Below are positions 25,320 through 57,460 of a DNA stretch of 58,004 nt, in pieces (the stretch's first letter is position 1; each line of letters starts with the position of its first letter). This DNA is from Bacteroidaceae bacterium (GTDB lineage: Bacteria; Bacteroidota; Bacteroidia; Bacteroidales; Bacteroidaceae): assembly GCA_017416805.1 (NCBI GenBank), contig JAFQBB010000010.1:1-58004 (forward strand), written 5' to 3'. A program made the translations under genes and the position numbers. The notes under the pieces are model-generated. The model had not been told where the DNA came from. It ran no database searches and saw only the letters and a list, made by a program, of their open reading frames with translations.

Positions 25320-25474
25320 TAATTTGGTTGAAATTAAGGGGAAAAATGGGAACATAAGTTCAAACGGTCACGAACATATGTTCGTTGGCACATGAACATA
25401 TGTTCAGAGGCCATTGAACATATGTTCATTTTTTAGGTCTGTTTTATCTCATGGAAATAATTCCAACTAAATTG
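25320..25474. repeat. 22-bp-period palindrome array A (GAACATATGTTC core)
   Basis: Four palindromes start at 25350 (GAACATAAGTTC, one mismatch), 25372, 25394 and 25416 (all GAACATATGTTC), exactly 22 bp apart. The 10-bp linkers differ. Outer flanks are TAATTTGGTTG at 25320-25330 and CAACTAAATTG at 25464-25474, an imperfect terminal inverted repeat giving 155 bp. The whole element is the reverse-complement counterpart of array B at 57306-57460. It occupies the ruvX upstream region. Confidence 0.85.
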
Positions 25475-25618
25475 CAGAAAAGGCGATTAAGGAAACAAAC
25501 ATTGAAAGTTTATTTCTTACAAACACAAATAACGCGGACGCCACGAATTCAAGATTCGCGTTGTCCGCGCATTAAATATTTTCCAGATGAAATTCTCTTC
25601 ACCCTTCTTCTATGATTT

Positions 25619-26149
25619 TTACTTGATATTGTAAAGCAACCAGGCTTTTTGGAAATCAGGATGTTCAGTATCACCAGCATAACGACCCTTGAAATCTTCA
25701 CGAGCTTGGGCTGCAGATGCCTTATCTGCATACGTAGCAACAATTACCCGATACATGTTCTTCTCTGCATTGTATGCAACCACGGCATTGTAACCATCTG
25801 CGTCAAGTTTCCGTTTCAAACCTTCAGCATTGGCTTTCATGCCAAAACTACCACAAACAACACTAAAATCTTTCAACGCATTTCCACTCACTACAGTTAC
25901 TTTCTCTTCGCGTACTACGGCAGAGGTTGAAGATACAGAAGGAGTAGTCTGAACCGGTGCGGCTTCAACGGGAGTGGTTACCACGGGGGTAACTTCCACG
26001 GGTTCGCTTACTTGAGCTTGGGCCAATTCCTGTTCTTTTGCCTTTTCGTAGGCTTTCTTGTAGGCACTCTCGCTACTTTTACAAGAAGTGGTAAATGTCA
26101 TAATTGCACACAATCCGAAGGCCAAGGCCACATAGTTTTTAATTCTCAT
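25619..26149 (-). CDS. SPOR-domain lipoprotein
   Basis: 176 residues. Lipoprotein signal MRIKNYVALAFGLCAIMTF ending at TTSC (cysteine near 23), then a low-complexity Pro/Val/Thr linker (VEVTPVVTTPVEAAPVQTT) and a C-terminal SPOR domain from about residue 95 (KDFSVVCGSFGMKANAEGLKRKL...YRVIVATYADKASAAQA). SPOR domains bind denuded peptidoglycan at division sites, so a septal envelope role is likely. The gene is flanked by palindrome arrays A and C. Confidence 0.88.
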   Translation of the reverse strand: MRIKNYVALAFGLCAIMTFTTSCKSSESAYKKAYEKAKEQELAQAQVSEPVEVTPVVTTPVEAAPVQTTPSVSSTSAVVREEKVTVVSGNALKDFSVVCGSFGMKANAEGLKRKLDADGYNAVVAYNAEKNMYRVIVATYADKASAAQAREDFKGRYAGDTEHPDFQKAWLLYNIK

Positions 26150-26207
26150 ACTTATAACCTTTTATTATTACTTAATTTATTCTTTTACTTTTTCCTGTAG
26201 TTCTCTG

Positions 26208-26345
26208 CAATTTAGTTGAGAAACACTATTCGTCTTCAGCATTATAGGTTCACTGGCAAAGTATCTTAAGATACTTGCTCATTTATCTTAAAATAAACGG
26301 TCATTTATCTTAAGATACTTATTTCTCCTAATTTCAACTAAATTG
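26208..26345. repeat. 22-bp-period palindrome array C (TATCTTAAGATA core)
   Basis: Three palindromes are centred at 26267.5, 26289.5 and 26311.5, exactly 22 bp apart: AAGTATCTTAAGATACTT, an imperfect TTTATCTTAAAATAAA, and ATTTATCTTAAGATACTT. The core is unrelated to arrays A and B, but the flanks are the same family: CAATTTAGTTG at 26208-26218 and CAACTAAATTG at 26335-26345, perfect 11-bp terminal inverted repeats. Located between the divergent SPOR and holin-like genes. Confidence 0.85.
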
Positions 26346-26515
26346 TATAAGAACATATTTTGTTTGCAAAGTAACAAAAAAAATACTAATTACACGAATA
26401 GGCATATATTTTTTTTAGGTTTATTGCTACATTTCTATAAAAAAGTATTGCCAAAGCAAACAATTTGAAAACTAATGATGTTGTCAGGTGTAAAAAGTTA
26501 AAAATAAGGTGAACA

Positions 26516-26884
26516 ATGTCCACGTTTGGAATTGGTAAAGAAATGGAAGAATTGTGTAGTATATGGAGACATGCCAAGAAGCACTTGATGCTCTATGGGG
26601 ATTATGCCCGATTGGTACTGGCCGAAAAGATGATTGTGTTATTTTCGGGATTGATGCTGACTTTTGTTCTGATAGGATTAGGATTAATGACACTTTTCTA
26701 CATCGGAGAATGTTGCGTACAACTACTGGCATTAATCACTGGAAGCCTTGCGATTGCCCATGCCATTGTGGCCGCAGGGTTCGTATGCATAGGTCTCATT
26801 ATCTATCTGATGAGAAAACGATTGATAGTGGTTCCATTGACTAAGTTTATCAGCAAACTTATTTTAGAGAAAACTACTACATGA
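26516..26884 (+). CDS. Holin-superfamily III-like (DUF1469/YqjE-type) membrane protein
   Basis: 122 residues, cytoplasmic N-terminus of about 35 residues, then two transmembrane helices with a short turn (about 40-65 and 72-97) and a basic tail. This is the layout of the phage-holin-family/YqjE proteins common in chromosomes. It has AAGG a few bases before the ATG. No phage genes are near; it pairs with the following small ORF, as yqjE does with yqjK in enterobacteria. Confidence 0.7.
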   Translation: MSTFGIGKEMEELCSIWRHAKKHLMLYGDYARLVLAEKMIVLFSGLMLTFVLIGLGLMTLFYIGECCVQLLALITGSLAIAHAIVAAGFVCIGLIIYLMRKRLIVVPLTKFISKLILEKTTT

Positions 26885-26936
26885 CTTATATCTGACAGAC
26901 ATTAGCAAACTGTTACGCTTATTAGAAATCAAGATT

Positions 26937-27203
26937 ATGAAACCAACAAACAGAATTGCACTAAATATGCCAAAGACATTAGCTGAAATCCGTCAACGGC
27001 GGATGGATGTTGGGCAGATGATTGTTAGCGAACGAACAACCGTCATACAAAAGCTCCATCGGCATTTCTATCCGATACTTCAGACAGAACGTGCACGTAT
27101 GGATGTCTATCTGAGGTATGCTATCAGAGGAGTCGTGATGGCAGAATACGGCACAAAACTATTTCGCATACTCTCAGAAATAATCCGTTTTATTCGACGG
27201 TGA
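26937..27203 (+). CDS. Small basic protein paired with the holin-like gene
   Basis: 88 residues, Arg-rich, helical, with no signal peptide or membrane segment. It starts 52 bases after the holin-like gene and overlaps the 3' end of the convergent glmS by 14 bases. Its position resembles YqjK-type partners of YqjE, but I see no firm sequence match. Function unknown; likely expressed with its upstream neighbour. Confidence 0.55.
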   Translation: MKPTNRIALNMPKTLAEIRQRRMDVGQMIVSERTTVIQKLHRHFYPILQTERARMDVYLRYAIRGVVMAEYGTKLFRILSEIIRFIRR

Positions 27204-29034
27204 CAGATTTAGCCAAATTACGCGGTTGGTCAACATCTTTCCCTTTACAAACAGCTATATGATAAGCCAAAAGTTGTAGTGGAATCGTGGTAATGAGCGG
27301 TTCGAAGCATTCAACAATACGGGGCAATTCTATCACATCATCAGCCAATCGACTTATTTCTTCATCACCTTCGGTCACCAAGGCTATCACTTTTCCCTTT
27401 CTGGCCTTTATTTCCTGAATGTTGCTGAGCACTTTTTCATACATGGCATTACGTGTGGCAATTACCACAACAGGCATTTCGGCATCAATCAAAGCAATGG
27501 GGCCATGTTTCATCTCAGCGGCCGGATATCCTTCGGCATGAATATAGCTGATTTCTTTCAGTTTAAGTGCTCCTTCCAAAGCAACGGGATAGTTAAATCC
27601 ACGCCCCAAATAAAGGAAATTGTGGGCATAAGTGAAGATGCGTGACAATTGTCCAATGCGTGTATCCATTTCAAGCACCCGTTCCATCTTTTCCGGCACG
27701 GAAGCCAATTCATGTACCAAGTTCAGATATTCCTCCTCACCAATTGTCTTCTTCTCGTAGGCCAGACAAAGTGCCAACATGGCCAATACCGTCACTTGTC
27801 CGGTGAAGGCTTTTGTCGAAGCAACTCCAATTTCGGGCCCAACGTGAATGTATGACCCTGTATGAGTGTTTCGCGGGATGGATGAACCTACGGCATTACA
27901 AATACCGTAGATAAATGCCCCTTTACGTTTGGCCAATTCAACAGCAGCCAACGTGTCAGCCGTTTCACCCGATTGTGAAATGGCTATCACAACATCATTT
28001 TCACCAATAACGGGATTTCTATATCGGAATTCAGAAGCATACTCCACCTCTACAGGTATCCGGCACACGCTTTCTATCAGGTGTTTTCCTATGAGTCCTG
28101 CATGCCAAGATGTGCCACAAGCCACAATAATAAATCTCCGAGCACTGAGCAGGCGCTCCTTATGGTCAATGATTGCCGATAAAATTACATGATTGGCTTC
28201 CGTGTTGACCCGCCCTCGCATACAATCGTTCAGACAAGATGGCTGTTCAAAGATTTCCTTCAACATGAAATGCGGATATCCTCCCTTCTCCAATTGTCCT
28301 AATTCAAGATCCACAGTCTTCACTTCAGGGGTTATCACCACATTATGCAGGTTTACCACTTTCAATTCTTTTCCTTGGCTGATTAGGGCTATTTCCTCAT
28401 CGTCCAAATAAACGACCTTATCTGTATATTCTACGATTGGCGAAGCATCTGATGCAAGAAAAAACTCACCTTCACCAATTCCCACCACCAAAGGACTGCT
28501 TTTACGTGCGGCAATAATCTGATTAGGCGTATTCTTGTCAATCACGGCAATAGCATATGCGCCAATAACCGACCGTAAAGCAATCTCTACAGCCGTCAGA
28601 AGATCAAGTTTCTTTGTTTCACGGACATAATCTATCAGTTGAACCAACACTTCAGTATCTGTCTCACTTTTGAAAGTATATCCCTTACGCTTGAGTTTTT
28701 CTTTCAAGGCGGCATAATTCTCAATAATACCATTATGAATCAAAGCCAAGTTACCCGAAGCCGAATAGTGAGGATGTGCATTCATTTGGCACGGTTCGCC
28801 ATGAGTGGCCCATCGGGTGTGGGCTATACCTATACATCCGCTTATATCTTTCGAAGATACAGATTCCTCCAAATCGCAGACTCTACCCTTGGCTTTATAA
28901 ACATTCATGGCTCCAGCCTTGTTAATCAAAGCCACACCTGCACTATCATATCCGCGATATTCCAATCTTTTCAGCCCTTTTATTAATATAGGGTAAGCCT
29001 CACGATTTCCTATGTATCCAACTATCCCGCACAT
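27190..29034 (-). CDS. glmS: Glutamine-fructose-6-phosphate aminotransferase (isomerizing)
   Basis: 614 residues from the start MCGIVGYIG at 29034, whose Cys2 becomes the N-terminal nucleophile; the longer frame from 29088 would bury it. The glutaminase domain (to about 240) is followed by two SIS sugar-isomerase domains (SQSGETADT, and the C-terminal DQPRNLAKSVTVE). Makes glucosamine-6-phosphate for peptidoglycan and LPS. No glmS ribozyme is evident in the short leader. Confidence 0.98.
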   Translation of the reverse strand: MCGIVGYIGNREAYPILIKGLKRLEYRGYDSAGVALINKAGAMNVYKAKGRVCDLEESVSSKDISGCIGIAHTRWATHGEPCQMNAHPHYSASGNLALIHNGIIENYAALKEKLKRKGYTFKSETDTEVLVQLIDYVRETKKLDLLTAVEIALRSVIGAYAIAVIDKNTPNQIIAARKSSPLVVGIGEGEFFLASDASPIVEYTDKVVYLDDEEIALISQGKELKVVNLHNVVITPEVKTVDLELGQLEKGGYPHFMLKEIFEQPSCLNDCMRGRVNTEANHVILSAIIDHKERLLSARRFIIVACGTSWHAGLIGKHLIESVCRIPVEVEYASEFRYRNPVIGENDVVIAISQSGETADTLAAVELAKRKGAFIYGICNAVGSSIPRNTHTGSYIHVGPEIGVASTKAFTGQVTVLAMLALCLAYEKKTIGEEEYLNLVHELASVPEKMERVLEMDTRIGQLSRIFTYAHNFLYLGRGFNYPVALEGALKLKEISYIHAEGYPAAEMKHGPIALIDAEMPVVVIATRNAMYEKVLSNIQEIKARKGKVIALVTEGDEEISRLADDVIELPRIVECFEPLITTIPLQLLAYHIAVCKGKDVDQPRNLAKSVTVE

Positions 29035-29220
29035 AATTATCTCGTTCTTTTTTGCATTATTTCTTGTTTTGAAGATGCAAAAATACAATATTTCAGTTTG
29101 AACACAAGCAAATCGGCTATTTTATTTTGAATAATTTTGTTTTAGCCATGTATAAAAAAATAACCATTTATTTTCTATACGTCATTAAGAATATATTAGT
29201 TCGAATAAACATTTTTTCTT

Positions 29221-29236
29221 CCCTACCTGAGAAAAA
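29221..29236. repeat. CCCTACCTGAGAAAAA word, copy 1
   Basis: The same 16-base word occurs at 39070-39085, where it forms one side of a hairpin. Here the second side is absent. It lies in the glmS-ettA gap, otherwise AT-rich and without a gene. Confidence 0.4.
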
Positions 29237-29299
29237 AGACTAAAAGGTTGAAAAGAAACATTCACAGATTACACTTCAAGCAAGTATCTTATGAAAAAA

Positions 29300-29347
29300 T
29301 ATCGCCTACCCCCCTTCACATAAAAATCAGAGGGGGATAGACGATAA
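29300..29347. terminator. Hairpin downstream of ettA
   Basis: ATCGCCTACCCCCCT pairs with AGGGGGATAGACGAT (two mismatches) around a 14-base loop, 44 bases after the ettA stop. Probable terminator of the minus-strand ettA transcript. Confidence 0.6.
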
Positions 29348-29390
29348 AATATAGGGAGGTTCTATAAAAGAATCGTTGGAAATACTTACA

Positions 29391-31082
29391 TCAATCTTCC
29401 ATCAACTTGCGGTAACGGGTACGTTTGGGCTCTTCCTGGCCAAGACGTTTCATCTTGTTTTCCTCGTATTCGGAATAAGAGCCTTCGAAATAGAACACAT
29501 TGCCATCGCCCTCAAAGGCAAGGATGTGCGTACAGATACGGTCGAGGAACCAACGGTCGTGACTGATGATGACGGCACATCCGGCAAACTCGTCAAGACC
29601 TTCTTCAAGTGCACGCAGGGTGTTCACGTCAATATCATTGGTAGGCTCGTCGAGCAAGAGCACGTTACCCTCTTCCTTCAAAGCCATGGCCAAGTGCAGA
29701 CGGTTACGTTCACCACCGGAGAGCATACCGCAGAGTTTCGTCTGGTCGGCGCCGGCAAAATTGAAGCGGCTCAGGTAAGCACGGGCATTCACATCGCGCC
29801 CCCCCATGCGGATAAGTTCGCTACCACCACTCACCACATCATAGACACTCTTCTCTGGGTCAATATCCTTGTGTTGCTGGTCAACATAGGCCAGTTTCAC
29901 CGTTTCGCCCACCTCAAAGGTACCCCCATCCACTTGTTCGAGTCCCATAATAAGACGGAAGAGTGTAGTCTTTCCTGCACCATTAGGTCCGATAACACCC
30001 ACAATACCGTTGGGAGGGAGCATGAAGTTGAGGTCGTTGAAAAGCACCTTGTCTCCAAAAGCCTTGCTCACATTGATTGCTTCGATAACCTTGTTTCCCA
30101 AACGGGGGCCGTTGGGGATATAGATTTCCAGCTTCTCCTCCTTGGCTTTCTGGTCTTCATTAAGCAACTTGTCGTATGAGTTCAGACGAGCCTTACCCTT
30201 TGCCTGACGGGCCTTAGGCGACATGTTAATCCACTCCAACTCGCGTTGCAGGGTCTTGCGACGCTTGCTGGCGGTCTTCTCCTCCATCTCCATGCGTTTG
30301 GTTTTCTGGTCAAGCCAACTGCTGTAGTTACCCTTCCAAGGAATACCTTCACCACGGTCAAGTTCGAGAATCCATCCGGCTACATGGTCAAGGAAGTAAC
30401 GGTCGTGAGTTACGGCAATGACCGTACCCTCGTATTGTTGGAGGTGTTGCTCCAACCAATCGATACTTTCAGCATCAAGGTGGTTGGTAGGCTCGTCGAG
30501 CAACAAGATGTCGGGCTTCTGAAGAAGCAGACGGCATAAGGCCACACGGCGACGCTCACCACCCGAAAGGAATTTTACCAACTGGTCATCGGGAGGACAA
30601 CGCAAAGCATCCATAGCACGCTCAAGTTTTGAATCGAGATTCCATGCATCGGTACTGTCAATCACATCCTGCAACTCGGCTTGGCGGGCAAAGAGGGCAT
30701 CCATCTTGTCAGGGTCCTCATAGTATTCGGGAAGTCCGAATTTATTGTTGATTTCTTCATATTCAGCCAATGCATCCACGATGGGTTGCACACCCTCCAT
30801 CACGATTTCCTTCACCGTTTTGTCAGGATCGAGCTGAGGTTCCTGAGGCAGGTAACCCACACTGTATCCGGGTGAAAATACCACTTCGCCCTGATAGCTT
30901 TTCTCAAGACCGGCTATAATCTTCAGCAAGGTACTCTTTCCTGATCCGTTAAGACCGATGATACCGATCTTGGCACCATAAAAGAAAGAGAGATAAATGT
31001 CTTTCAGTACTTGTTTGTTGGCTTGGAAGGCTTTCGATACGCCCACCATTGAAAAAATGATTTTCTTGTCGTCAACGCTCAT
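29391..31082 (-). CDS. ettA: Energy-dependent translational throttle protein EttA (ABC-F)
   Basis: 563 residues with two ABC ATPase domains and no membrane segment. Walker A motifs GLNGSGKST and GPNGAGKTT; signatures LSGGERRRVAL and LSGGERNRLHL; Walker B LLLDEPTNHLD and LLLDEPTNDID. The linker between them (about 245-310) carries the charged P-site-tRNA-interacting motif. It binds the ribosomal E site and gates the first elongation step according to ATP/ADP ratio. Length and end (TRYRKLMED) fit EttA rather than other ABC-F members. Confidence 0.93.
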   Translation of the reverse strand: MSVDDKKIIFSMVGVSKAFQANKQVLKDIYLSFFYGAKIGIIGLNGSGKSTLLKIIAGLEKSYQGEVVFSPGYSVGYLPQEPQLDPDKTVKEIVMEGVQPIVDALAEYEEINNKFGLPEYYEDPDKMDALFARQAELQDVIDSTDAWNLDSKLERAMDALRCPPDDQLVKFLSGGERRRVALCRLLLQKPDILLLDEPTNHLDAESIDWLEQHLQQYEGTVIAVTHDRYFLDHVAGWILELDRGEGIPWKGNYSSWLDQKTKRMEMEEKTASKRRKTLQRELEWINMSPKARQAKGKARLNSYDKLLNEDQKAKEEKLEIYIPNGPRLGNKVIEAINVSKAFGDKVLFNDLNFMLPPNGIVGVIGPNGAGKTTLFRLIMGLEQVDGGTFEVGETVKLAYVDQQHKDIDPEKSVYDVVSGGSELIRMGGRDVNARAYLSRFNFAGADQTKLCGMLSGGERNRLHLAMALKEEGNVLLLDEPTNDIDVNTLRALEEGLDEFAGCAVIISHDRWFLDRICTHILAFEGDGNVFYFEGSYSEYEENKMKRLGQEEPKRTRYRKLMED

Positions 31083-31104
31083 GATTATTTTTGGGGAAAG
31101 TTAA

Positions 31105-31230
31105 AGGAGTTAAAGGAAGTTATCGGCTCTTCGAGCCTAAGGAGTTAAAGCCAATAGTTTTAGCAAGACATTTGGCTTTAACTCCTTTAACTCCTAACGA
31201 GCAAAGTGAGTGATAACTCCTTTAACTCCT
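31105..31230. repeat. Nested inverted repeats of an AGGAGTTAAAG word
   Basis: Outer arms 31105-31124 and 31212-31230 and inner arms 31139-31154 and 31172-31186 are reverse complements, all built from AGGAGTTAAAGG-type words. An RNA would form a two-stage hairpin between ettA and the nucleotidyltransferase gene. Confidence 0.7.
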
Positions 31231-31240
31231 AAAAATAAAA

Positions 31241-32152
31241 TTAAAACAACTTCGCAGGATATTCACCGGCATCGATGAGAGCCTGAATCTTGTCAACCAC
31301 ACCCTGACGGTCAGCAGCATAAGTCACACCGAACCATTTGCTGGTAGTGTCGAGCACCTCTACGGTAGCGGTATTCTCGTTGATGAGTTTGTTCACCATC
31401 AATGGGATAAAGAACTCTGCCTTCAGATTCTCCATATTCTTCGGGTCACTCAAGAACTCGATGAAATACTCCTCAGAGTGCTTGAAGTAGTCGGGAGTGA
31501 ATCCCCACATGTTCATTGATACGGGAGTGTTGTCTTCAACGGCAATCCACTGACCCTCCTCATCCTTGTAGCAAATAGGGCCGTCAACACGCATGATTTC
31601 GGTACGTTCAACCACAGTAGTCAGGTGTCCTTGCTCGTTCTTTTCGCAGATACCACGAGCTACAGAGCCATTCTCTGAGAGTGTATTACCTACGCGGAAG
31701 CCCACCATGCAATACTTATTCTCTTGTCCTTCGGGCAACTCACTCAGCCACTTTCCGATAACGGCGAAAGCATCGCGGCTATAGAAGTCGTCGGCATTGA
31801 TAACGGCGAAAGGTTCTTTGATAACGTCCTTACCCATCAACACGGCATGGTTAGTACCCCAAGGTTTTACGCGCTCAGCAGGGCAAGTGAAACCTTCGGG
31901 CAGATCATCGATTGCCTGAAATACAAGTTCTACGGGGATATGGTTTTCATATTTACTGATAATCTTCTCGCGGAAATCCTGCTCAAAGTCCTTACGGATA
32001 ACGAACACAATCTTTCCGAATCCGCCACGGATGGCATCGAAGATTGAATAATCCATGATAGTCTCACCATTGGGGCCCAGTCCGTCCAACTGCTTCAAGC
32101 CTCCATAACGGCTACCCATACCGGCAGCCAATACAAACAATGTAGGTTTCAT
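31241..32152 (-). CDS. Sugar nucleotidyltransferase-like protein
   Basis: 303 residues with a nucleotidyltransferase fold: LAAGMGSRYGGLKQLDGLGPNG is the nucleotide-binding loop, GTNHAVL and VINADDFYSRDAF the metal/sugar site. It resembles NTP-transferase proteins of Bacteroidetes that activate a sugar phosphate. It lacks an obvious acyltransferase domain. Substrate is not readable; it could serve polysaccharide or glycoconjugate synthesis. The neighbouring genes give no hint. Confidence 0.8.
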   Translation of the reverse strand: MKPTLFVLAAGMGSRYGGLKQLDGLGPNGETIMDYSIFDAIRGGFGKIVFVIRKDFEQDFREKIISKYENHIPVELVFQAIDDLPEGFTCPAERVKPWGTNHAVLMGKDVIKEPFAVINADDFYSRDAFAVIGKWLSELPEGQENKYCMVGFRVGNTLSENGSVARGICEKNEQGHLTTVVERTEIMRVDGPICYKDEEGQWIAVEDNTPVSMNMWGFTPDYFKHSEEYFIEFLSDPKNMENLKAEFFIPLMVNKLINENTATVEVLDTTSKWFGVTYAADRQGVVDKIQALIDAGEYPAKLF

Positions 32153-32301: not shown

Positions 32302-32325
32302 CAGCAGAAAACAAGCAACGCGACT

Positions 32326-41763: not shown

Positions 41764-42375
41764 TCACTTCCCATACCACCCCTCACAAGGCATATAGATG
41801 GGATTGTGGGGTGTAGATACATTCTGAAGTTTTCCCTCTTCCAGCAACCGTCTGATGTGACGATAGGCTGTAGATGTACACAGATGGCATAAGTTTTGGA
41901 ATTGGATACGAGTGATGACTGGATTTGATGCAAAATGTTCGGCCAACTTCTCATCAATGCCCTCTTCACTTATCTGTGCCGAATGCGAACCGACAGACGC
42001 ACGCTCCATCTTGGCACGACGCATCTTCACCTTCAACTCTTCATCGACTCTGAACGTAATGTTCTTGAACATGACCGGCGCACGCTTCATGTCCTCCTTA
42101 TTGCATATCTTCTTAGAACATTGCAGGCTGACTCCCATATAGCCAATCCCCTCCAGATGCACCTTCCGACCGTAACTCAAATGTTGCGCCAGTTTGTCTG
42201 CCAACGAGACAAGCACCGCTTTCACATCTGCCCGTGTCAGCGTACAGGCTTCCTGTATCTCTTTGGCCAATTCGTCTGTAGATACGCCACCGACTGATAC
42301 CACACGTGGGTGGTACGTCTTGTCTCCCTCCCCTGTAGGGTTCGGAGTTTCAAAGAAATCATAAATTATTGCCAT
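41764..42375 (-). CDS. HU-like DNA-binding protein with C-terminal helix-turn-helix
   Basis: About 203 residues from MAIIYDFFETPNPTGEGDKTYHPRV at 42375; a longer frame from 42414 crosses the promoter and is rejected. Residues 1-125 match the Bacteroidetes HU/IHF-like family (DELAKEIQEACTLTRADVKAVLVSLADKLAQHLSYGRKVHLEGIG). The C-terminal part (about 135-200) looks like a winged helix-turn-helix (ITRIQFQNLCHLCTSTAYRHIRRLLEEGKL), an addition to the basic fold. It probably binds DNA as a nucleoid protein. A five-unit palindrome array lies directly upstream of its promoter and may be its own or another factor's binding site. Confidence 0.82.
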   Translation of the reverse strand: MAIIYDFFETPNPTGEGDKTYHPRVVSVGGVSTDELAKEIQEACTLTRADVKAVLVSLADKLAQHLSYGRKVHLEGIGYMGVSLQCSKKICNKEDMKRAPVMFKNITFRVDEELKVKMRRAKMERASVGSHSAQISEEGIDEKLAEHFASNPVITRIQFQNLCHLCTSTAYRHIRRLLEEGKLQNVSTPHNPIYMPCEGWYGK

Positions 42376-42400
42376 ATCAATTATAGTATGTTTATGCGTA

Positions 42401-42431
42401 CAAAGATACGACATTATTCATAAGAATGCAA
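42401..42431 (-). promoter_or_regulatory. Consensus promoter of the HU-like gene
   Basis: On the minus strand TTG (42431-42429), 20 bases, TATCTTTG (42408-42401). Transcription would start near 42394, 19 bases before the ATG. Array D begins 14 bases upstream of the -33 element. Confidence 0.72.
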
Positions 42432-42445: not shown

Positions 42446-42547
42446 TTCACAGATGTGAAGAGATTTCTTCACAACTGTCAAGAGATCTCTTCACGGATGT
42501 CAAGAGATGTCTTCACATCTGTGAAGAGATACTTTCACAGATGTGAA
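42446..42547. repeat. 22-bp-period palindrome array D (TTCACAnnTGTGAA core)
   Basis: Five units start at 42446, 42468, 42490, 42512 and 42534, exactly 22 bp apart. Units 1, 4 and 5 are TTCACA-GA/TC-TGTGAA; units 2 and 3 have substitutions (TTCACAACTGTCAA, TTCACGGATGTCAA). The 8-bp linkers mostly begin GAGAT. The CAATTTAGTTG flanks of arrays A and C are not seen. It lies immediately upstream of the HU-like promoter. Confidence 0.88.
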
Positions 42548-42627
42548 GAGGTTATTGAATATATACTTCAATGCTTATAAAAGATACAATGTATCTGATT
42601 CAACTTATACTTTTCGGTTATCATCCA

Positions 42628-44355
42628 CTACGGCATCACCACTTTATTTACGCGTTTCTTACCGTTATCAAGCATATCCACACGGATGAAAATGCCTTGC
42701 GATGGCGACTCGACACGCATGCCCTGCAGGTTGAAGTACTGGGTCTCTACAACGCGGCCGGTATAAACCTCTGTAATACCATCGGCCTTGCCGTTGATTG
42801 CAGGTACGTATGTACCGTCAGCCTTGGTGTAGGCTGGATAATATTCTTGAACAGCATCGATAGCATCTGCATTACCGGCTATCATAATATCTTGTACCAA
42901 ACTGTTCATATAGACTTCCAGATTGGTGTATATCTTCTCTGCATCAACAGTATAGAGTTTGCTGTCGTTCAAACTGGGGTTCAACCCATTGGCTGTTTCC
43001 CAATCATCGGGCATTCCATCCTTGTCTGTATCTGTCGGTTTGGTTTCTTTGTTAAGTACGGGCCATCCGCCTACATCATTTTGTGTGTCAATGATTCCGG
43101 GTTTTCCAGTTACACTTCCCGTATAGACAACTTCTCCTGTTTCGGCTTCCTGGGCATAACGTGCATCAACGGCATCTCTTCTGTATGAAGCACCTGCATA
43201 AGCCAATACTTTCTCGAAAGCTACGGTAGCACTATGGGTAGTCACTTCACCGGCATCTATAGGCTCTTCTATTTTGATGGGGATATTACCGGCTCCTTCG
43301 CCATAGTAGTTTTTAGAGTCGTTTACACACTTGACACCATTAACGGTAGGGAGACCGCTATCATAAACTACACCTTGCCAGTCGTAATTCTCAGCATTCT
43401 CGCCTGCGGCAGTAACATAGTTGCCATTGATGTAGTAGCGGCTGGTGTAGCCGGGGAATGGGTTGTCTCCACCATTACTGCTGTCCGACTTGGATATTTG
43501 GGTCACTCTCGTCTTGTTTGTTGTTGCCGGGCCCGCTTTGTAGTAATTGTTGACCATGTTGATGTATCCGCCTCCAGGACCTCCATAGCATCCGCCTGTG
43601 CCCCAATTGAACATGACGCAGTTGCGGAAGTCAACACGTTCGGCTTGAATGGTATTGGGGTATTTGGAAGTGTCATATCCACTCCAATCATATCTGGCTC
43701 CATTGAAGCGGGGGACACGGTTTTGCAAGTGTAGCAGGAAGTTGTGATGGAACGAAGCTTCCTTGCCTCCCCATATGCCGCCGTATCCATGTGCGCCCTT
43801 GTCGTGTCCGGCATTAGTCAGTGCTTCAGCTACGGTACACCATTGCATGGTGAATGTACGGTTATCATAGAACGATGCCACTTCGTCGATACTCCAACTG
43901 AATGAGCAGTGGTCGAGCATGATATTTTTTCTTTGACGTCCCCAAATGGCATCTGCCCCATCGTTGATGTTGACGGCATTGCCCCGTCGGAAACGGATGA
44001 AACGGATAATGACATTGTCGGCAGCTATCGTTACAGTATAGTTGGCCAAAGTAATTCCGTCACCCGGAGCTGTCTGTCCGGCTACGGTAACATCTCCCTT
44101 TGAAATCTTCAAGTCCGATGCCAGGTTGATAGTACCGCTTACATCAAAGACAATAGTTCGTTTCCCGCTTTTTCCTAATGCTTCGCGCAACGAACCTGTT
44201 CCTTTATCGTTAAGGTTTGTTACATGGTAAACGGTCCCTCCTCGTCCGCCAGTGATATATCTGGCAAACCCTTCTGCTCCAGGAAATGCCGGAGCCTGTG
44301 CAAATGTTGTACTTGCAAAGATTGTAGCTAACGCTGCGATTAGTTGTTTTTTCAT
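42628..44355 (-). CDS. Secreted pectate lyase (PL1-like) with C-terminal tail
   Basis: About 575 residues from MKKQLIAALATIFASTTFAQ at 44355, a clean signal peptide; the frame open from 44457 would cover the promoter. The body is a right-handed beta-helix lyase: GRGGTVYHVTNLNDKGTGSLREAL, VAGQTAPGDGITL, NVIIRFIRFRRG, IMLDHCSFSWSIDE. These cleave polygalacturonan by beta-elimination using calcium. DTDKDGMPDDWE near residue 430 is a calcium-binding repeat-like site. The tail YFNLQGMRVESPSQGIFIR is the Bacteroidetes C-terminal signature. Divergent from the GH53 gene. Confidence 0.87.
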   Translation of the reverse strand: MKKQLIAALATIFASTTFAQAPAFPGAEGFARYITGGRGGTVYHVTNLNDKGTGSLREALGKSGKRTIVFDVSGTINLASDLKISKGDVTVAGQTAPGDGITLANYTVTIAADNVIIRFIRFRRGNAVNINDGADAIWGRQRKNIMLDHCSFSWSIDEVASFYDNRTFTMQWCTVAEALTNAGHDKGAHGYGGIWGGKEASFHHNFLLHLQNRVPRFNGARYDWSGYDTSKYPNTIQAERVDFRNCVMFNWGTGGCYGGPGGGYINMVNNYYKAGPATTNKTRVTQISKSDSSNGGDNPFPGYTSRYYINGNYVTAAGENAENYDWQGVVYDSGLPTVNGVKCVNDSKNYYGEGAGNIPIKIEEPIDAGEVTTHSATVAFEKVLAYAGASYRRDAVDARYAQEAETGEVVYTGSVTGKPGIIDTQNDVGGWPVLNKETKPTDTDKDGMPDDWETANGLNPSLNDSKLYTVDAEKIYTNLEVYMNSLVQDIMIAGNADAIDAVQEYYPAYTKADGTYVPAINGKADGITEVYTGRVVETQYFNLQGMRVESPSQGIFIRVDMLDNGKKRVNKVVMP

Positions 44356-44390
44356 GTGATAATATTTTGTGATATATTTTATTTGGTTTG

Positions 44391-44398
44391 CAAATGTA
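44391..44398 (-). promoter_or_regulatory. -7 element of the PL1 gene
   Basis: Minus-strand TACATTTG fits the consensus; it places the start of transcription near 44384, about 29 bases before the ATG at 44355 and excludes the longer frame. Confidence 0.55.
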
Positions 44399-44476
44399 AT
44401 ACTTAATAAATAACAAATCACATAATATTCAAAAAAAATAACTATTTTTGCTCGCAAATAATAAAATACGAAGTTG

Positions 44477-51290: not shown

Positions 51291-51372
51291 TTAACTTATA
51301 TTTTTCCCGCTTCTCAAAAGTTTTTAGTCCCTTTGCAATAAATATCTTATTAACCAAATAAAACACTGCATT

Positions 51373-52524
51373 ATGAAAAAGATTGTTTCTTTATTTGTCC
51401 TGATTCTTTGTGCCTGTACATGTATGGCACAGTATTATGTGGAATCCCCCAATCAGGAATTGCGAGTGACACTCCATTCAAATAGAGGAAGAAAGGGCTC
51501 AAGCAAATTCTTTGTACCTTTGAAGATGACGATGAAAGTATTCAGCCAAAGCGAAGTGTTGGTTGACGAGGAGATTGGCCTGACGGTGAAATCCAAAGGA
51601 CGCAGGTATGCATTCGGTAAATCAAATATCCAGCAAGTCAATAAAACGGAAAGACAACTTGACCATCCTGACACTCGGGATGCCGGACTTTCCGACATGT
51701 CGGGCCGATACAACAGCCTGCTGTTGGTAACGGACAATGGGATGACACTGGAGGTGAGAGCCTATAACAATGGCATTACTTATCGCTACAGGGTTTCAGG
51801 ATATCCCGAGGACTACAAAATATTGGAGGTGTGTGACGTGTTTCCCGATGAAAGCCCTGTTGCCATACTGGGTACATTTGAAGGAGACTACACCTCACCT
51901 TGGCACGTAATGAAAGTGGAGCTTCCCGCCAAAGCAGACAGGAGAGCTAAAGCCCAACTCTCGACAACAAGCCCCACCCGCCGTTTAGGAACCCGTATTA
52001 TACCATGGCGCGATGCGCTTTCATCCATTAGCGTGGGTACAGCCATGAATATTCATAGTGGCGATACATGGGGAGACTTCAGCGACTATCACACATTCAG
52101 CGTGGATTTCACTTACAAGCACCTGTTCGGTGGCTTGAGTTTCATGCCTTGCGGCGAGATACAATATATCTATCTGAATGAAAGTTATTGGCCGTTCGAA
52201 GGAGTTGTAAAAGACATTAGCGCTTGGAATGTAGGGGCAAGAGCCGGATATTGCCTGCCCATACAGAATGGTTATGAAATATGGAGCTTCATCCCCTACG
52301 TGGCCACCACCTTGATGCACCTGCACCAGCACGGTAAGATTCGCGTTGGAGCAAAAGCCCTCTCCCACCATGCCCACTGGATGGTAGGCCCGGGTGTGAA
52401 AGTGCAATTGGCCGTGCGCGAAGGCATCACCTTAGGCGCAGGATATGAGTACCAGTTCTTCCTTGACAACAAGGCACCAAAGGGTATGCACGCCATATCG
52501 GTATCAATGGGAAAGACATTCTAA
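51373..52524 (+). CDS. GH97 N-terminal-domain-like / outer-membrane beta-barrel fusion
   Basis: 383 residues. Signal peptide ends at CMAQ (20). Residues about 21-180 resemble the N-terminal beta-sandwich of GH97 enzymes: YYVESPNQELRVTLHS at the start and NSLLLVTDNGMTLEVRAYNNGITYRY near 114-139. The GH97 catalytic barrel that should follow is absent. Residues about 215-383 instead alternate like a small outer-membrane beta-barrel (SISVGTAMNIHSGDTWGDF, TFSVDFTYKHLFGGLSF, ISVSMGKTF) ending in phenylalanine, the usual outer-membrane-protein end. It may display a sugar-binding module at the outer membrane. Function is inferred only. Confidence 0.65.
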   Translation: MKKIVSLFVLILCACTCMAQYYVESPNQELRVTLHSNRGRKGSSKFFVPLKMTMKVFSQSEVLVDEEIGLTVKSKGRRYAFGKSNIQQVNKTERQLDHPDTRDAGLSDMSGRYNSLLLVTDNGMTLEVRAYNNGITYRYRVSGYPEDYKILEVCDVFPDESPVAILGTFEGDYTSPWHVMKVELPAKADRRAKAQLSTTSPTRRLGTRIIPWRDALSSISVGTAMNIHSGDTWGDFSDYHTFSVDFTYKHLFGGLSFMPCGEIQYIYLNESYWPFEGVVKDISAWNVGARAGYCLPIQNGYEIWSFIPYVATTLMHLHQHGKIRVGAKALSHHAHWMVGPGVKVQLAVREGITLGAGYEYQFFLDNKAPKGMHAISVSMGKTF

Positions 52525-52544
52525 CGAAATACAAAAATATAACA

Positions 52545-53942
52545 ATGAAAGCAGGAAGATATTTCTTATTCGCCATTGCCGTGAGCATGGTATTGGAAGG
52601 ATGTAAAGGATTTTGTGCCAAAGAGAACGGGGAAAAAACAGAGAGCCAGACTCCGCAAGAACAGATTATAAGCCGTATTGCCACAACAAGTTTCCCTGAC
52701 CGGACGTTGGAGGTGACGGTGAACGGAGAGGATGCATTGAAGGCTCTGCAACAAGCCATCGACTCCTGTTCGTTGGCAGGTGGAGGAAAGGTGGTGGTAA
52801 AAGCCGGACACTATGCACTGGGCGGCCCCTTGAAGTTGAAGAGTAATGTAAACCTGCATTTGGAGGAAGGGGCTTATCTGCAATTCAGCGGACGGGCGGA
52901 CGACTTCCTCCCCGTGGTGCTTACCCGTTGGGAAGGTACAGAGCTGTATGGCCATTCACCCATGGTGTATGCCTATCATTGCACCAACATTGCCATCACA
53001 GGCAAGGGTACCATCGATGCCCAAGGTGGCAAGGAGTTTGCCCCATGGGCCGCTCAAGAGGCATCTGACCGCGACCGCCTGCGCGAGATGGGCGACAAGC
53101 TGACACCGGTGAACGAACGTGTGTTCGGCAAAGGCACCATCCTGCGCCCTTCGTGTATGCAATTCCTCGGATGTTCACGCATCCTGCTTGAGGACATCAC
53201 CATCAAGGATTCTCCCTTCTGGACAATTCATCCCGTCTATTGCGACAACGTCATTGTGCGCGGAGTGACCATAGACAGCCACTTCCCCAACAACGACGGA
53301 TGCGACCCCGAATCGACCTCCAACGTGTTGATCGAGAACTGTACCTTCCGCACGGGTGACGATGCCATAGCCATCAAGGCCGGACGCGATACGGACGGAC
53401 GAAGCATCGGGCGCCCGTCGGAAAACATCGTCATCCGCAATTGCCTCTTCTATTCAGAGTGCAACGGCTTGTGCATCGGTAGCGAAATGTCGGGCGGTGT
53501 GGCCAATGTCTATATGGACAACATCGAGATTGGCACGGTGAAGAATGCACTCTACTTCAAGTCAAACCGCGACCGTGGCGGATACATCCGTAACGTACAC
53601 GTGAACGACATCACCATCGAGCGCGCATTGGGCGCCATCCTGCGCTTCGAAACCAACTATTTCGGTTTCCGTGGAGGCAACTATCAGGCACGCTACGAAG
53701 ACTTCAAGATAAGCAACGTACATGCCCGCACGGCCGACCATTATGCCATCTTCATGGACGGCAACGAAGAGAAGCCTATCCGCAACATCGAGGTGACAAA
53801 CTTCCATGTGGATAAGGCCGAGCGTCCCTACTACCTTATCTATACAGAGAATATCGCTTTCAAGGAATCGACGGTCAACGGAGTGGCCGTGCCCGAATAT
53901 CCGGAAGAGAGTACGGAGCGTCAGAGCTGCGACGTGTGGTAA
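52545..53942 (+). CDS. GH28 polygalacturonase
   Basis: 465 residues with a lipoprotein-like signal (VSMVLEGCKG). Right-handed beta-helix with the GH28 acids: NNDGCDPEST, TGDDAIAIKAGRD, then CNGLCIGSEMSGGV (replacing GHG) and FKSNRDRGG near the RIK position. The form resembles exo- or rhamnogalacturonan-type GH28 enzymes of Bacteroidetes, releasing galacturonate from pectin. Starts 20 bases after the fusion gene and 32 bases before GH127; same transcript likely. Confidence 0.92.
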   Translation: MKAGRYFLFAIAVSMVLEGCKGFCAKENGEKTESQTPQEQIISRIATTSFPDRTLEVTVNGEDALKALQQAIDSCSLAGGGKVVVKAGHYALGGPLKLKSNVNLHLEEGAYLQFSGRADDFLPVVLTRWEGTELYGHSPMVYAYHCTNIAITGKGTIDAQGGKEFAPWAAQEASDRDRLREMGDKLTPVNERVFGKGTILRPSCMQFLGCSRILLEDITIKDSPFWTIHPVYCDNVIVRGVTIDSHFPNNDGCDPESTSNVLIENCTFRTGDDAIAIKAGRDTDGRSIGRPSENIVIRNCLFYSECNGLCIGSEMSGGVANVYMDNIEIGTVKNALYFKSNRDRGGYIRNVHVNDITIERALGAILRFETNYFGFRGGNYQARYEDFKISNVHARTADHYAIFMDGNEEKPIRNIEVTNFHVDKAERPYYLIYTENIAFKESTVNGVAVPEYPEESTERQSCDVW

Positions 53943-53974
53943 AACCTGAAAAATAAAGAAATATCAAACCGACT

Positions 53975-56900
53975 ATGAAAAAAAGGAAACTGACAACAGC
54001 CGTAGCCGTTATTACGGCCCTGATTATGGCCGACAAGATGAACGCGCAAAGCGAACTCTATCCTCAACATTTCAATCTTGAAGAAGTGACATTGCTTGAA
54101 AGCCCTATGAAGGAGGCAATGGACGTCAACAACAAGTTATTGCTTGAATACGACACTGACCGTTTGCTGACCCCCTTTATCCGACAAGCCGGTTTGCACA
54201 ATGTGGAAGGAAGTAAATATCATGGATGGACAACCACCCACCCATCGTTCAGCAATTGGGGCCTCTCCTCGTGGTCGCTCGAAGGCCATGTGGGCGGACA
54301 CTACCTGACGGCCCTGTCATTGGCTTATGCAGCTACCACTGACGAGACGGTAAGGAGACAAATGAAAGACCGTCTTGATTACATGCTGCAAGTATTGAAG
54401 GATTGCCAGGAGGCTTACGAAGGCAACACACAAGGCATGGAAGGATTTATCGGCGGACAACCGATCAACCAGATATGGACAGGCTTGTATAGCGGAAACC
54501 TCTCCCCCTTCAAGCAATACGGCGGATGGGTGCCATTCTATTGCAGCCACAAGATTCTGGCCGGATTGCGCGATGCTTGGATATACACCGATAGCGAAGT
54601 GGCCAAACAACTCTTCCGTGGCCTCTGCGATTGGAGTGTGAATCTCATCAGTAACCTGACAGAAAGTCAAATGCAGGAGGTGCTCGGATGGGAGCATGGC
54701 GGCATGAACGAAACCCTGGTCGATGCCTACCGCCTGTTGGGCGACGAGAAATACCTGAAAGCAGCCAAACGATACAGCCATGCTTACGAAATCAACGGTA
54801 TGCAGGGAAACGAGAGTACCTACTCGACCACATTCCTCAACGGCCAGCACGCCAACACGCAGGTGCCCAAGTTCATTGGTTTTGAGCGCATCTGGCAAGA
54901 GGACAACACAGCTACGACTTACCGCACGGCGGCACACAACTTCTGGCACGATGTGGCCACCCACCGCACGGTGTGCATCGGAGGAAACAGTGTGAGCGAG
55001 CACTTCCTGGCCCATGAGAGGAGTTCGGAGTATATGACAAACCTTGACGGTCCTGAAAGTTGCAACTCGAACAACATGCTGAAGTTGTCCGAAATGTTGT
55101 TTGACGAGACCCATGATGCCCGCTATGCCGACTTCTACGAAGGAACCATGTGGAATCACATACTCTCTACCCAAGACCCCGAAACTGGCGGATATGTATA
55201 TTTTACCACCCTACGCCCTCAGAGCTACCGGATTTATTCACAAGTGAATCAGGCCATGTGGTGCTGTGTCGGTACAGGCATGGAGAATCACTCAAAATAT
55301 GGTCATTTCATCTACACGCACAATGCGGACGAAGTGCTCTATATCAACCTGTTTACAGCCAGCACATTAAACAGCGCCACCTTTGCCCTCACCCAGGAGA
55401 CAGACTTTCCATACGATGACCGGACAAAAATTACCATCCGCAAAGGAGGAACCTACACTATAGCTGTACGCCATCCGGCATGGACAACAGAAGGATATGC
55501 GGTACATGTCAACGGTGAACCACAAGAAACCGGAGTAACAGAAGGTACAGCATCATACGTACACATCAATCGCACATGGAAGGAAGGCGATGTGGTGACG
55601 GTCAACCTCCCCATGGAGTTACGTTACGAAACATGTCCGGGATATGACAGCTACGTGGCCTTCAAATATGGACCTATGCTACTGGCCGCACGCACCACTG
55701 CACGCACTCAAGCGGAAGCCGACTCTACAGGATTGGAGTACGAAGCCCTGCAAAACGAATATGCCGGCGAGGGACGCATGGATCATGCTCCGGGAAGCCG
55801 TGCCACATTGAAAGGATTGAACTCGGCCCCTCTGCTTATAGGCAAACGGGAAACTGTGCTTGACCGCATCAAGGCTGCCGACCTCACAAAACTTCACTTC
55901 ACACTGGATGCACAATCAGAGGCTGGAAGCGGTAATTGGACAAGTCTGACCCTCGAACCCTTTTATGGCATCCATCACAGCCGCTATTCATGCTACTGGT
56001 ATCAACAATCAGCCGATGCCTACGAACAAAGCGATATGGGCAAGGCTGATGCCGAAGAGAAAGCCCTGATTGAACGCACCTTGGATTTTGTTGCTACGGG
56101 CGAACAACAGAGCGAAGCCGGACACGATGCCACCTACAGCACCACCTCCACTACAGGCTCATACCGTGGCGAATACTACCGCGACGCACAAGCTGGCGGA
56201 TACATCCAATACACACTGGAAAACACCAAGGGCGAAACCGAGGGGATGGCTCTGATGTGCCGCTTCACAACGGCCGATGCCGGACGCAAAGCCACCATCT
56301 ATGTGGATGGAGAAAAATTGGTCGATGTGACAATCCCCTCCACACACAATGCCGCTGATGGCAATGGCTTTTACAACATTGAGTATCCCCTTACGCCCAA
56401 CAAACTGACAGATGCCGACGGCAAGATAAAAGAACGGATCGTATTCCGCATCGTAGCTTCATCGTCCACCCTCTGTCCCGGGCTCTATTACCTGCGTCTG
56501 GTCAACGGATATGTAAGCAACGCATACGTTTTCCGCGCCAAAGACTGGACAACAGGCGATGCAGGACGCGTGACGCGCGACAAGTTCACCTATGACGACG
56601 AAAACAATACACTGACGGTGAAAGCCGGTACGGGCGACAACAATGTATGTCTGATGCTGGATTACCAGCAATGCGAATACACCGCCAACGAGAGCGACAA
56701 ATACCTGGTGGTGAAAGGCAACAACCTGAGCACCGCTTCGGGCAAATCCTACCTCTGGTGGCTCAATGGTACAAACCGCGGAAGCAGTGTGGCACCGACC
56801 GTTGTCAAGCAGACCACCGATGGCGATATCGTCATTGCCTGGGACATTACCAAAAGCGGATTAGCCGACAATTGTGTGGGTGACCAGTACGACCTCTGCG

Positions 56901-57157
56901 CAGGAATGACCATTTTCGGACTTACCTCCACAACCGGCACCTCCTGCATCCGCCACATCGGATTCCATCCCTCGGTAGATGCCTACCTCGAAGCCGAAAC
57001 CATTCGCCTCCCCACAACCCCAGTATCCGATAACCCCGTGAATGTTTACGCCATCGATGGCACCCTATTGAAAGAAAACGTTGCAACCGGTAAAGCTACC
57101 AATGACCTGAAACCCGGAATTTATCTTATAGGAAACACCAAAGTCAATGTGAGATAG
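53975..57157 (+). CDS. Secreted GH127 (DUF1680) beta-L-arabinofuranosidase-like protein
   Basis: 1060 residues. Signal peptide ends near MNAQS. The (alpha/alpha)6 catalytic region (about 30-460) keeps the zinc-thiolate site expected for GH127: Glu342 (SVSEHF), Glu361 and Cys363 (ESC), Cys430-Cys431 (WCCVGT). It is followed by beta-sandwich domains, a DUF4986-like region (about 560-700), further carbohydrate-binding-like modules and a tail NPVNVYAIDGTLL...PGIYLIGNTKVNVR, the Bacteroidetes C-terminal signature. Removes L-arabinofuranose from pectic or arabinan side chains. Last gene of the pectin run. Confidence 0.9.
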   Translation: MKKRKLTTAVAVITALIMADKMNAQSELYPQHFNLEEVTLLESPMKEAMDVNNKLLLEYDTDRLLTPFIRQAGLHNVEGSKYHGWTTTHPSFSNWGLSSWSLEGHVGGHYLTALSLAYAATTDETVRRQMKDRLDYMLQVLKDCQEAYEGNTQGMEGFIGGQPINQIWTGLYSGNLSPFKQYGGWVPFYCSHKILAGLRDAWIYTDSEVAKQLFRGLCDWSVNLISNLTESQMQEVLGWEHGGMNETLVDAYRLLGDEKYLKAAKRYSHAYEINGMQGNESTYSTTFLNGQHANTQVPKFIGFERIWQEDNTATTYRTAAHNFWHDVATHRTVCIGGNSVSEHFLAHERSSEYMTNLDGPESCNSNNMLKLSEMLFDETHDARYADFYEGTMWNHILSTQDPETGGYVYFTTLRPQSYRIYSQVNQAMWCCVGTGMENHSKYGHFIYTHNADEVLYINLFTASTLNSATFALTQETDFPYDDRTKITIRKGGTYTIAVRHPAWTTEGYAVHVNGEPQETGVTEGTASYVHINRTWKEGDVVTVNLPMELRYETCPGYDSYVAFKYGPMLLAARTTARTQAEADSTGLEYEALQNEYAGEGRMDHAPGSRATLKGLNSAPLLIGKRETVLDRIKAADLTKLHFTLDAQSEAGSGNWTSLTLEPFYGIHHSRYSCYWYQQSADAYEQSDMGKADAEEKALIERTLDFVATGEQQSEAGHDATYSTTSTTGSYRGEYYRDAQAGGYIQYTLENTKGETEGMALMCRFTTADAGRKATIYVDGEKLVDVTIPSTHNAADGNGFYNIEYPLTPNKLTDADGKIKERIVFRIVASSSTLCPGLYYLRLVNGYVSNAYVFRAKDWTTGDAGRVTRDKFTYDDENNTLTVKAGTGDNNVCLMLDYQQCEYTANESDKYLVVKGNNLSTASGKSYLWWLNGTNRGSSVAPTVVKQTTDGDIVIAWDITKSGLADNCVGDQYDLCAGMTIFGLTSTTGTSCIRHIGFHPSVDAYLEAETIRLPTTPVSDNPVNVYAIDGTLLKENVATGKATNDLKPGIYLIGNTKVNVR

Positions 57158-57219
57158 CTACTAGCTACGAGTTACTAGTGACTAGCTACGAGCTACAAGT
57201 GATGAGTGCTGAGTGACCA
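57158..57219. repeat. Intergenic CTACGAGCTACAAGTGATGAG-type word repeat
   Basis: Begins directly after the GH127 stop: CTACTAGCTACGAG, TTACTAGTGACTAG, CTACGAGCTACAAG, TGATGAGTGCTGAG. Same word family as the in-frame inserts of the GH43 gene. Confidence 0.75.
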
Positions 57220-57305
57220 TATGGCCGTTCAGCACTCTATTATTTGAGTCAATCCGAAAGCCCGGTTGTAACGTCATTCGATTTGCCAAAATATTAGGTT
57301 TTTCT

Positions 57306-57460
57306 ACCGTTTAGTAAAAAGTATGTCCAATACAAGAAAACAGGTCTAAAAAATGAACATATGTTCAAACGCCAATGAACATATGTTCAAGTGCCAACGA
57401 ACATATGTTCGTGGCCACTTGAACTTATGTTCCTATTTTCTCCCTAATTTCAACTAAATG
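57306..57460. repeat. 22-bp-period palindrome array B (GAACATATGTTC core)
   Basis: Palindromes start at 57355, 57377, 57399 (GAACATATGTTC) and 57421 (GAACTTATGTTC), exactly 22 bp apart. Order, degenerate end unit and flanks (AACAGGTCTAAAAAA left; CCTAATTTCAACTAAAT right) match the reverse complement of array A, while the linkers differ. Total length about 155 bp, as in A. Lies about 145 bases before the CRISPR array. Confidence 0.85.

Follow-up and report, generated by a model that had tools for sequence, protein, structure and literature searches.

Intergenic palindromes arrayed at a 22-bp pitch in a Bacteroidaceae genome and its relatives

Results

Palindrome arrays in the window

The window analyzed here is a 58,004-nucleotide stretch of contig JAFQBB010000010.1 from a Bacteroidaceae bacterium (assembly GCA_017416805.1). 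It holds four arrays of short palindromes whose units follow one another at a pitch of 22 bp. Three of them had been noticed in a sequence-only reading, at 25320-25474 (A), 57306-57460 (B) and 26208-26345 (C), and are present there. Their units start in exact 22-bp steps, at 25350, 25372, 25394 and 25416 in A, at 57355, 57377, 57399 and 57421 in B, and at 26240, 26262, 26284 (the imperfect TATCTTAAAATA) and 26306 in C. Arrays A and B are built on one core (type A), array C on another (type C).

25310..25484, minus strand: array A, type A, borne by a putative miniature inverted-repeat transposable element (MITE); terminal repeats at 25315-25333 (decayed) and 25461-25479
25350..25427, unstranded: units of array A, GAACATAAGTTC then three GAACATATGTTC; four 12-bp units, pitch 22
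26203..26350, plus strand: array C, type C, borne by a putative MITE; terminal repeats at 26203-26221 and 26332-26350
26240..26317, unstranded: units of array C, CATTATAGGTTC, TATCTTAAGATA, TATCTTAAAATA, TATCTTAAGATA; pitch 22
42458-42557, unstranded: fourth array, five units, AAGAGATTTCTT, AAGAGATCTCTT, AAGAGATGTCTT, AAGAGATACTTT, AAGAGGTTATTG; pitch 22
57297..57466, plus strand: array B, type A, borne by a putative MITE; left end badly decayed, right terminal repeat at 57448-57466
57355..57432, unstranded: units of array B, three GAACATATGTTC then GAACTTATGTTC; pitch 22

Arrays A and B had been described as sharing length and unit order. A is inverted relative to B, the variant unit coming first in A and last in B. 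In the fourth array, which is AAGAGATCTCTT-like, unit symmetry falls off toward the right end and no ISL3 end was found; it lies between the stop of an open reading frame (ORF; 42628-44457, minus strand) and an HU-HIG gene (41764-42414, minus strand; PF18291). Gene calls throughout are guesses from the longest ORF. With up to two mismatches, GAACATATGTTC occurs 13 times in the window against 3.2 expected, a count reached by 0 of 100 shuffles, while the flank word with up to three mismatches is weakly enriched (8 against 3.7 expected; 4 of 100 shuffles reach 8).

Other features of the window include a CRISPR array (Rfam CRISPR-DR49, 4 repeats called) at 57681-58004, from about 215 bp past array B to the contig end, and a Bacteroidales-1 RNA (suggested to be a 6S RNA) on the minus strand at 18068-18237 (135 bits). 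A second small repeat, GTATGTTAACGATTTCCGTTGAC-like and hairpin-like, abuts arrays at 57466-57500 of the window and at loci L071, L089, L093 and L162, the last in another species. Known RNA families and a plasmid, phage or viral origin were considered for the arrays and rejected: Rfam gave no match on them at the gathering threshold, array A had no blastn match in plasmids or phages, and exact searches for four array patterns among the viral contigs of IMG/VR gave 0 matches.

An ISL3-type frame with interchangeable cores

The source genome of the window comprises 3.16 Mb in 64 unordered contigs and is 91% complete. Exact copies of GAACATATGTTC number 77 in it against 0 in the control, those of TATCTTAAGATA 29 against 1, and TTTCAACTAAAT occurs 15 times against 0 in reversed controls. 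The terminal repeat TTCTGCAATTTAGTTGAAA, with up to three mismatches, is found 51 times against 2 in the control.

We gathered 41 array places in this genome, by terminal repeat or by palindrome. At 31 a terminal repeat (up to three mismatches) lies within 60 bp, and the 10 places without one still keep their units; repeat-free places include C3:95697, C18:45104, C20:62285, C27:14377, C13:18513, C14:4624 and the fourth window array. The 17 elements with both ends recognizable span 99-176 bp, with a consensus running from GGTTCTTCTGC to GCAGAAGAACC. ISL3 elements duplicate 8 bp of target on insertion. Among these 17 elements, which do not include A, B and C, the 8-bp flanks agree at 8/8 positions in four, at 7/8 in four and at six or fewer in nine, two of the last matching at 7-8 letters when shifted by one or two bases.

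With at most one mismatch, the terminal repeat is present in 9 of the 61 genomes searched, the source genome included. In the related genome G012, two copies (0 and 1 mismatch) lie about 1.5 kb from each other, with a broken transposase and no array between them. Because this parent insertion sequence (IS) shares the terminal repeats and holds pieces of PF01610 (E 7.5e-10) and PF14690 (E 1.2e-11), we assign the frame of arrays A, B and C, on sequence likeness, to an ISL3-type MITE, which gives a family to the non-autonomous mobile element that had been proposed. PF01610 has 0 matches in the source genome, at 91% completeness. Copies across that genome bear out a family of elements with interchangeable cores in one frame, and within the genus the same frame carries TATCTTAAGATA arrays (G014, G004) or GAACATATGTTC (G002).

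Of 11 relatives that have the orthologous gene, 7 were inspected by eye, and neither array A nor array C was seen next to it; the neighbor pair of A is intact in 5 of these relatives and that of C in 6. Both are therefore probably insertions in the lineage of the source genome, and their ends and linkers are old enough to have changed.

MITE or IS insertions lie beside CTGATTTCAGT or TGATATAGGT at L233, L234, L237, L238, L097 and L075, which suggests that these words form a preferred, itself repeated, insertion target.

Palindromes are conserved better than their surroundings

The type A conservation set consists of 16 four-unit copies of one layout found via the terminal repeat. Their units are 1.4% off consensus (the first two not at all), against 13.1% for linkers and 21-23% for flanks, and the terminal repeats are 10.8% off (23 ends), even though they served as the search key. 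Adding 4 further elements of other layout or with one or two units, which enter this count only, 61 of the 75 units in all 20 type A elements found via the terminal repeat are perfect, and 15 of 900 unit letters differ from the core; the count excludes L063, found by its palindrome. For type C, a unit-based alignment of nine copies gives 2.5% for units, 13.0% for linkers and 23-27% for flanks; including L088, which has a 1-base deletion and misaligns, gives 0.8-10.8% for units and 16-24% for linkers. Four arrays of the sister species G008, from the same genus and selected for equal layout, differ at 0 of 288 unit positions and 50 of 180 linker positions. The palindromes are thus better conserved than linkers, flanks and terminal repeats, as the comparison of A with B had hinted. 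Copies within one family share descent, and copy counts are not counts of independent events. Within one array, odd but self-symmetric units, GAAGTTAACTTA-like or GAAGCTAGCTTC, also occur amid GAACATATGTTC.

Pitch and cores within and beyond the genome

At the loci examined in the source genome, adjacent type A units no more than 60 bp apart stand at pitch 22 in 66 of 68 cases. Type C units do so in 10 cases, with 44 in 9 (the middle unit being degenerate) and 24 in 1. The exact pitch reported for A, B and C thus recurs across many copies, contrary to the outcomes that the sequence-only reading had named as refuting it (no further copies in the genome, or a freely varying pitch). A further tally (53 at pitch 22, 38 at 33) comes from loci around known arrays and is biased.

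A core-free scan searched for three equally spaced dyads (at least 5/6 pairs each) at pitches of 13-40. In a blindly picked 400-kb stretch of G008 it returned 10 clusters at pitch 22 and 0 at any other, with 3 stray clusters in shuffled sequence. Nine are AACAATATTGTT-like and one is CGGACGCGTCCG; these cores are unlike those of the window and amount to two families rather than ten separate events. Scanning G008 by period revealed AAGTATNATACTT arrays in addition. Pattern searches in G008 gave 78 forward and 84 reverse matches to AACAATATTGTT-N10-AACANNNNTGTT (control 0) and 113 AAGTATNATACTT pairs (control 0). In 400 kb of the source genome outside the window, including contig C46, already known to hold arrays, the scan found 4 clusters at pitch 22 and 1 at 21 (shuffled, 1 stray); the four comprise three cores, two GAACATATGTTC, one AAGAGATCTCTT and one AGATTTAAATCT.

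The scan of 400 kb of genome G019 returned 0 clusters at pitch 22 and 3 stray ones (in shuffled sequence there were 5, including one at 22), and a period scan, in which masked N runs yield false matches at many periods, four 22-bp arrays. Twenty genomes of the family, four of which belong to the genus, contributed 345 kb, three of the stretches being tiny; here there was 1 cluster each at pitches 22, 13 and 33. In 304 kb from 20 genomes of the order there were 0 at pitch 22 and 4 stray, and in 200 kb of E. coli 0 at pitch 22 and 2 stray.

An exact AACATATGTT pair with a gap of 2-30 occurs in 6 of 393 genomes of the order, the source genome included (reversed control, 2). Its pitch is 22 in the source genome and in G146, and 13, 16, 25 and 31 in the remaining four. 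Each core is thus confined to its lineage, and AACATATGTT does not always stand at pitch 22. Among named genomes, AACATATGTT-N12-AACATATGTT is found in at least 104 stretches; the 80 listed comprise 74 Bacteroidales-type metagenome-assembled genomes (MAGs; 38 of them the rumen MAG RGIG9171), 3 Flavobacteriia and 3 from outside Bacteroidota, and no ISL3 ends were seen in those contexts that were read among the matches listed.

Arrays of other spacing were also observed. The AACATATGTT pairs of G106 have AT-rich linkers and stand at pitch 16, a different spacing class, and the source genome holds more tandem arrays at periods 21, 23 and 24 (L285, L289, L290, L293, L294 and L299), for example AAATATATATTT at 21 and GACCCACCTGTGTCTCG at 23.

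Two GAACATATGTTC at pitch 22 stand just upstream of lexA-type genes (PF01726, PF00717) in two actinobacterial records, from Acidimicrobiaceae and Microthrix:

L179, 4867-4898: GAACATATGTTC pair upstream of a lexA-type gene
L187, 2857-2888: GAACATATGTTC pair upstream of a lexA-type gene

The LexA-type motifs reported for Bacteroidetes in the available text of one study, GGA-N5-TCC and CTAA-N5-TTAG (PMC8565304), do not match the array units by inspection, and Bacteroidetes LexA operators were rejected as an identity for them.

Placement between genes

The 41 places in the source genome divide into 18 tandem, 17 convergent and 3 divergent gaps (array C among the last), 2 contig-edge positions and 1 position inside an ORF, while 57 other gaps are 34 tandem, 7 convergent and 16 divergent. 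For 19 arrays of G008 the counts are 7 tandem, 7 convergent, 0 divergent and 5 inside ORFs, against 61 tandem, 24 convergent and 26 divergent among 111 gaps. Arrays favor convergent gaps and avoid the divergent, promoter-bearing ones, a placement that fits terminators and repetitive extragenic palindromic (REP) elements, not operators.

At the repeat-free place C27:14377, next to a DUF1599 gene, no array was seen by eye in the 330 nt before that gene in 13 relatives that have it. A different inverted repeat with arms of at least 12 is present there in 7 of the 13 (1 of 78 shuffles), and one with arms of at least 10 in 9 of the 13 (13 of 78 shuffles). The source genome has arms of 24 with at most one mismatch.

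Chromosomal distribution in the sister species

GC skew in G008 starts out negative and turns positive at about 0.34 Mb. The windows sampled from there to 2.2 Mb are positive, apart from one close to zero; the skew is negative again from 2.4 to 3.0 Mb, and two short windows, at 3.3 and 3.6 Mb, give slightly positive values. The skew would place the origin near 0.36 Mb, which dnaA at 2.947 Mb does not fit, and we infer a terminus position with which dnaA and the skew sign at 3.3 and 3.6 Mb disagree.

The zone of 1.82-2.84 Mb was set after the first core family had been seen and before the second was searched for. Within 0-2.944 Mb, the range covered for both families by the 100 matches listed for each and the only one compared, this zone holds 2 of 34 AACAATATTGTT arrays against 21 of 39 AAGTATNATACTT arrays (Fisher 8.8e-6; Kolmogorov-Smirnov 0.002). 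A test of label runs (P 0.19), a rotation test (P 0.51) and a correlation of binned counts (-0.23, P 0.40) were not significant, and outside the zone the two families intermix. We treat the differing distribution as a lead only, though it makes nucleoid anchoring, one of the roles offered in the sequence-only reading, an idea worth considering. All three CGTACGGACGCGTCCG arrays found in 400 kb of G008 (L280, L282 and L284, at 0.30-0.38 Mb of contig C1) lie within 76 kb around the inferred origin.

Type A and type C arrays of the source genome lie on the same contigs (C3, C29), which disfavors a simple domain code for these two types.

Discussion

We favor a reading, to which we would give an even chance, in which each array lines up dimer sites along a single face of the DNA for chromosome-organizing or roadblock proteins. 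A sequence-specific DNA-binding protein would occupy each 12-18 bp palindrome as a single homodimer; an Lrp/AsnC-type octamer spanning four sites was entertained as a mere conjecture. A pitch of 22 bp is two helical turns, so that neighboring dimers would share a DNA face and could touch, forming a short stable row of usually three to five dimers; several core types per genome would then probably mean several such proteins. Rows at gene 3' ends, often between convergent genes, would most likely serve chromosome organization or insulation, by blocking polymerase or holding domains, rather than promoter control. In the source genome, an ISL3-type MITE may have captured such rows and copied them around, and host selection may later have preserved the palindromes even as the MITE ends decayed. 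The protein and terminator readings could also be united, if a bound row worked as a roadblock terminator.

It is from the observed units, pitch, frame, conservation and placement that we infer protein binding, dimer contact and role. Different cores at constant pitch, conserved letters, self-symmetric odd units and units without a pairing partner all favor proteins; among the 7 G008 arrays examined that carry the AACACTTGTGTT/AACACAAGTGTT unit, for instance, 5 contain no unit exactly complementary to it. The GAACATATGTTC pairs upstream of actinobacterial lexA-type genes offer a precedent. Apart from proteins stacked along one face, or some structural rule yet to be recognized, little would readily explain why a two-turn pitch stays fixed while the words change. 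Were proteins to bind, chromosome organization in Bacteroidales would open to direct test, and a mobile element would have spread sites later kept by host selection.

Several observations weigh against rows of bound dimers. No binding protein was identified for the arrays. Pitch-22 arrays are strong in some genomes and scarce in most Bacteroidales and their cores are lineage-bound, and therefore the function cannot be general; moreover, elements with the same frame in G006 and G012 carry 23-bp repeats with no clear palindrome. Other signs would suit RNA hairpins as well. Of 58 array ends in the source genome, 45 have a T-run immediately beyond them against a 6% background, in a set where 21 of 29 arrays are related type A copies. 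When linkers are shuffled, the RNA fold becomes weaker in 21 of 27 arrays (z averages -1.4; nine arrays reach p<=0.03, and three are clearly less stable than the null) and in 7 of 8 G008 arrays, in part because the dyad extends into the linker. Three arrays (L110, L158 and L069) show matched changes from unit to unit, and strict letter conservation could also be expected were each unit required to pair with several partners. Protein and hairpin cannot be told apart by RNA folding, since symmetry alone makes the units fold well and since the dyad runs into the linkers in the G008 AACAATATTGTT family.

The strongest rival, possible though in our view improbable, is that the arrays are bidirectional terminators or 3'-end stem-loops, in which palindromes would pair in the transcript of either strand, T-runs would free the polymerase and the MITE would have spread terminators. 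Convergent-rich and divergent-poor placement in both genomes, the T-runs, the strong folds and the other inverted repeats present before the DUF1599 gene in relatives (7/13 with arms of at least 12) are all as this would predict. A hairpin, however, needs no exact pitch of 22 with unrelated cores; linkers are direct and non-pairing in L166, L177 and L145 (z +2.5, +1.7 and +1.4), some G008 units lack an exact pairing partner, and no four-T run lies within 12 nt at the 16 ends of 8 G008 arrays. Were the arrays terminators instead, they would be a large, portable and unrecognized class.

We consider it unlikely that the arrays are selfish MITE cargo, tandem palindromes born by slippage and kept symmetric by hairpin-templated repair with no host function. 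Terminal repeats, 8-bp duplications, insertions not seen in relatives, a patchy distribution and near-identical 22-bp repeat runs in L166 and at 1.4438-1.4442 Mb of G008 speak for such cargo. Yet the palindromes are better conserved than the terminal repeats required for mobility, and units persist at the 10 of 41 places without a terminal repeat; repair between units should also let loci drift to their own words, whereas the word is constant across loci. Operators of a transcription factor for adjacent genes, a role the sequence-only reading had offered, would account for symmetric 12-mers at helical phase and for the GAACATATGTTC pairs upstream of lexA-type genes, but are very improbable because the arrays avoid divergent gaps and favor convergent ones.

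Returning to rows of bound dimers, a more elaborate form of that reading is tentative and rather doubtful: an unrecognized chromosome-organizing code, in some Bacteroidales, of several phased-array families, each with its own protein, regionally weighted, partly recruited from mobile elements and re-coded between species at fixed pitch. In G008 such a code would leave the 12-bp family scarce and the 13-bp family, with its free center base, common around the inferred terminus, which is a lead only.

Comparison with known systems

Among the matches listed, a literature search showed no description of this array class, and the earlier statement that no described element has this design was nearly right. 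The exact word GAACATATGTTC does occur in four listed papers. The nearest relative is BrickBuilt of Porphyromonas gingivalis, which in the available text (PMC4596501) is likewise an intergenic Bacteroidales MITE, with a tandem 23-nt repeat, variable unit number and 19 copies; its whole element matches in P. gingivalis, its leader and tail also in P. gulae. We read the junction in the published repeat consensus as a palindrome, TCTCATATGAGA. BrickBuilt differs in its pitch of 23, in terminal repeats like those of IS5-family ISPg1/ISPg9 rather than ISL3, and in its reported bidirectional promoters, and 'palindrom' occurs 0 times in the main text of the paper. Membership of our arrays was rejected by inspection, neither the IS5-type terminal repeat nor the 23-nt unit AGAYCATARTATCCTCTCRTRTG being matched. 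The ISL3 family itself, through the parent IS of G012, shares the terminal repeat, the PF01610 and PF14690 pieces and the 8-bp duplications, but there encloses no array.

REP elements and bacterial interspersed mosaic elements (BIMEs) likewise consist of palindromes scattered between genes, for the most part where the neighbors are convergent or co-directional; an imperfect palindrome of 20-40 bp beside the tag and a REP-type transposase are typical of them. As presented in the available sections of the source (PMC3733652), they differ in carrying GTAG or CGTC tags and in occurring as single units, dimers or clusters, with no fixed helical pitch described there and no ISL3 frame; in the aligned type A and type C copies no constant GTAG or CGTC tag was seen by eye.

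The SlmA and MatP sites of E. coli are given in the accessible part of the source (PMC3116907) as 12-13 bp palindromes outside (SlmA) or inside (MatP) the terminus domain, the MatP site being 13 bp with a free center. They differ in being described there as scattered rather than in phased arrays, but by analogy the two G008 families appear to resemble them in form and partly in distribution.

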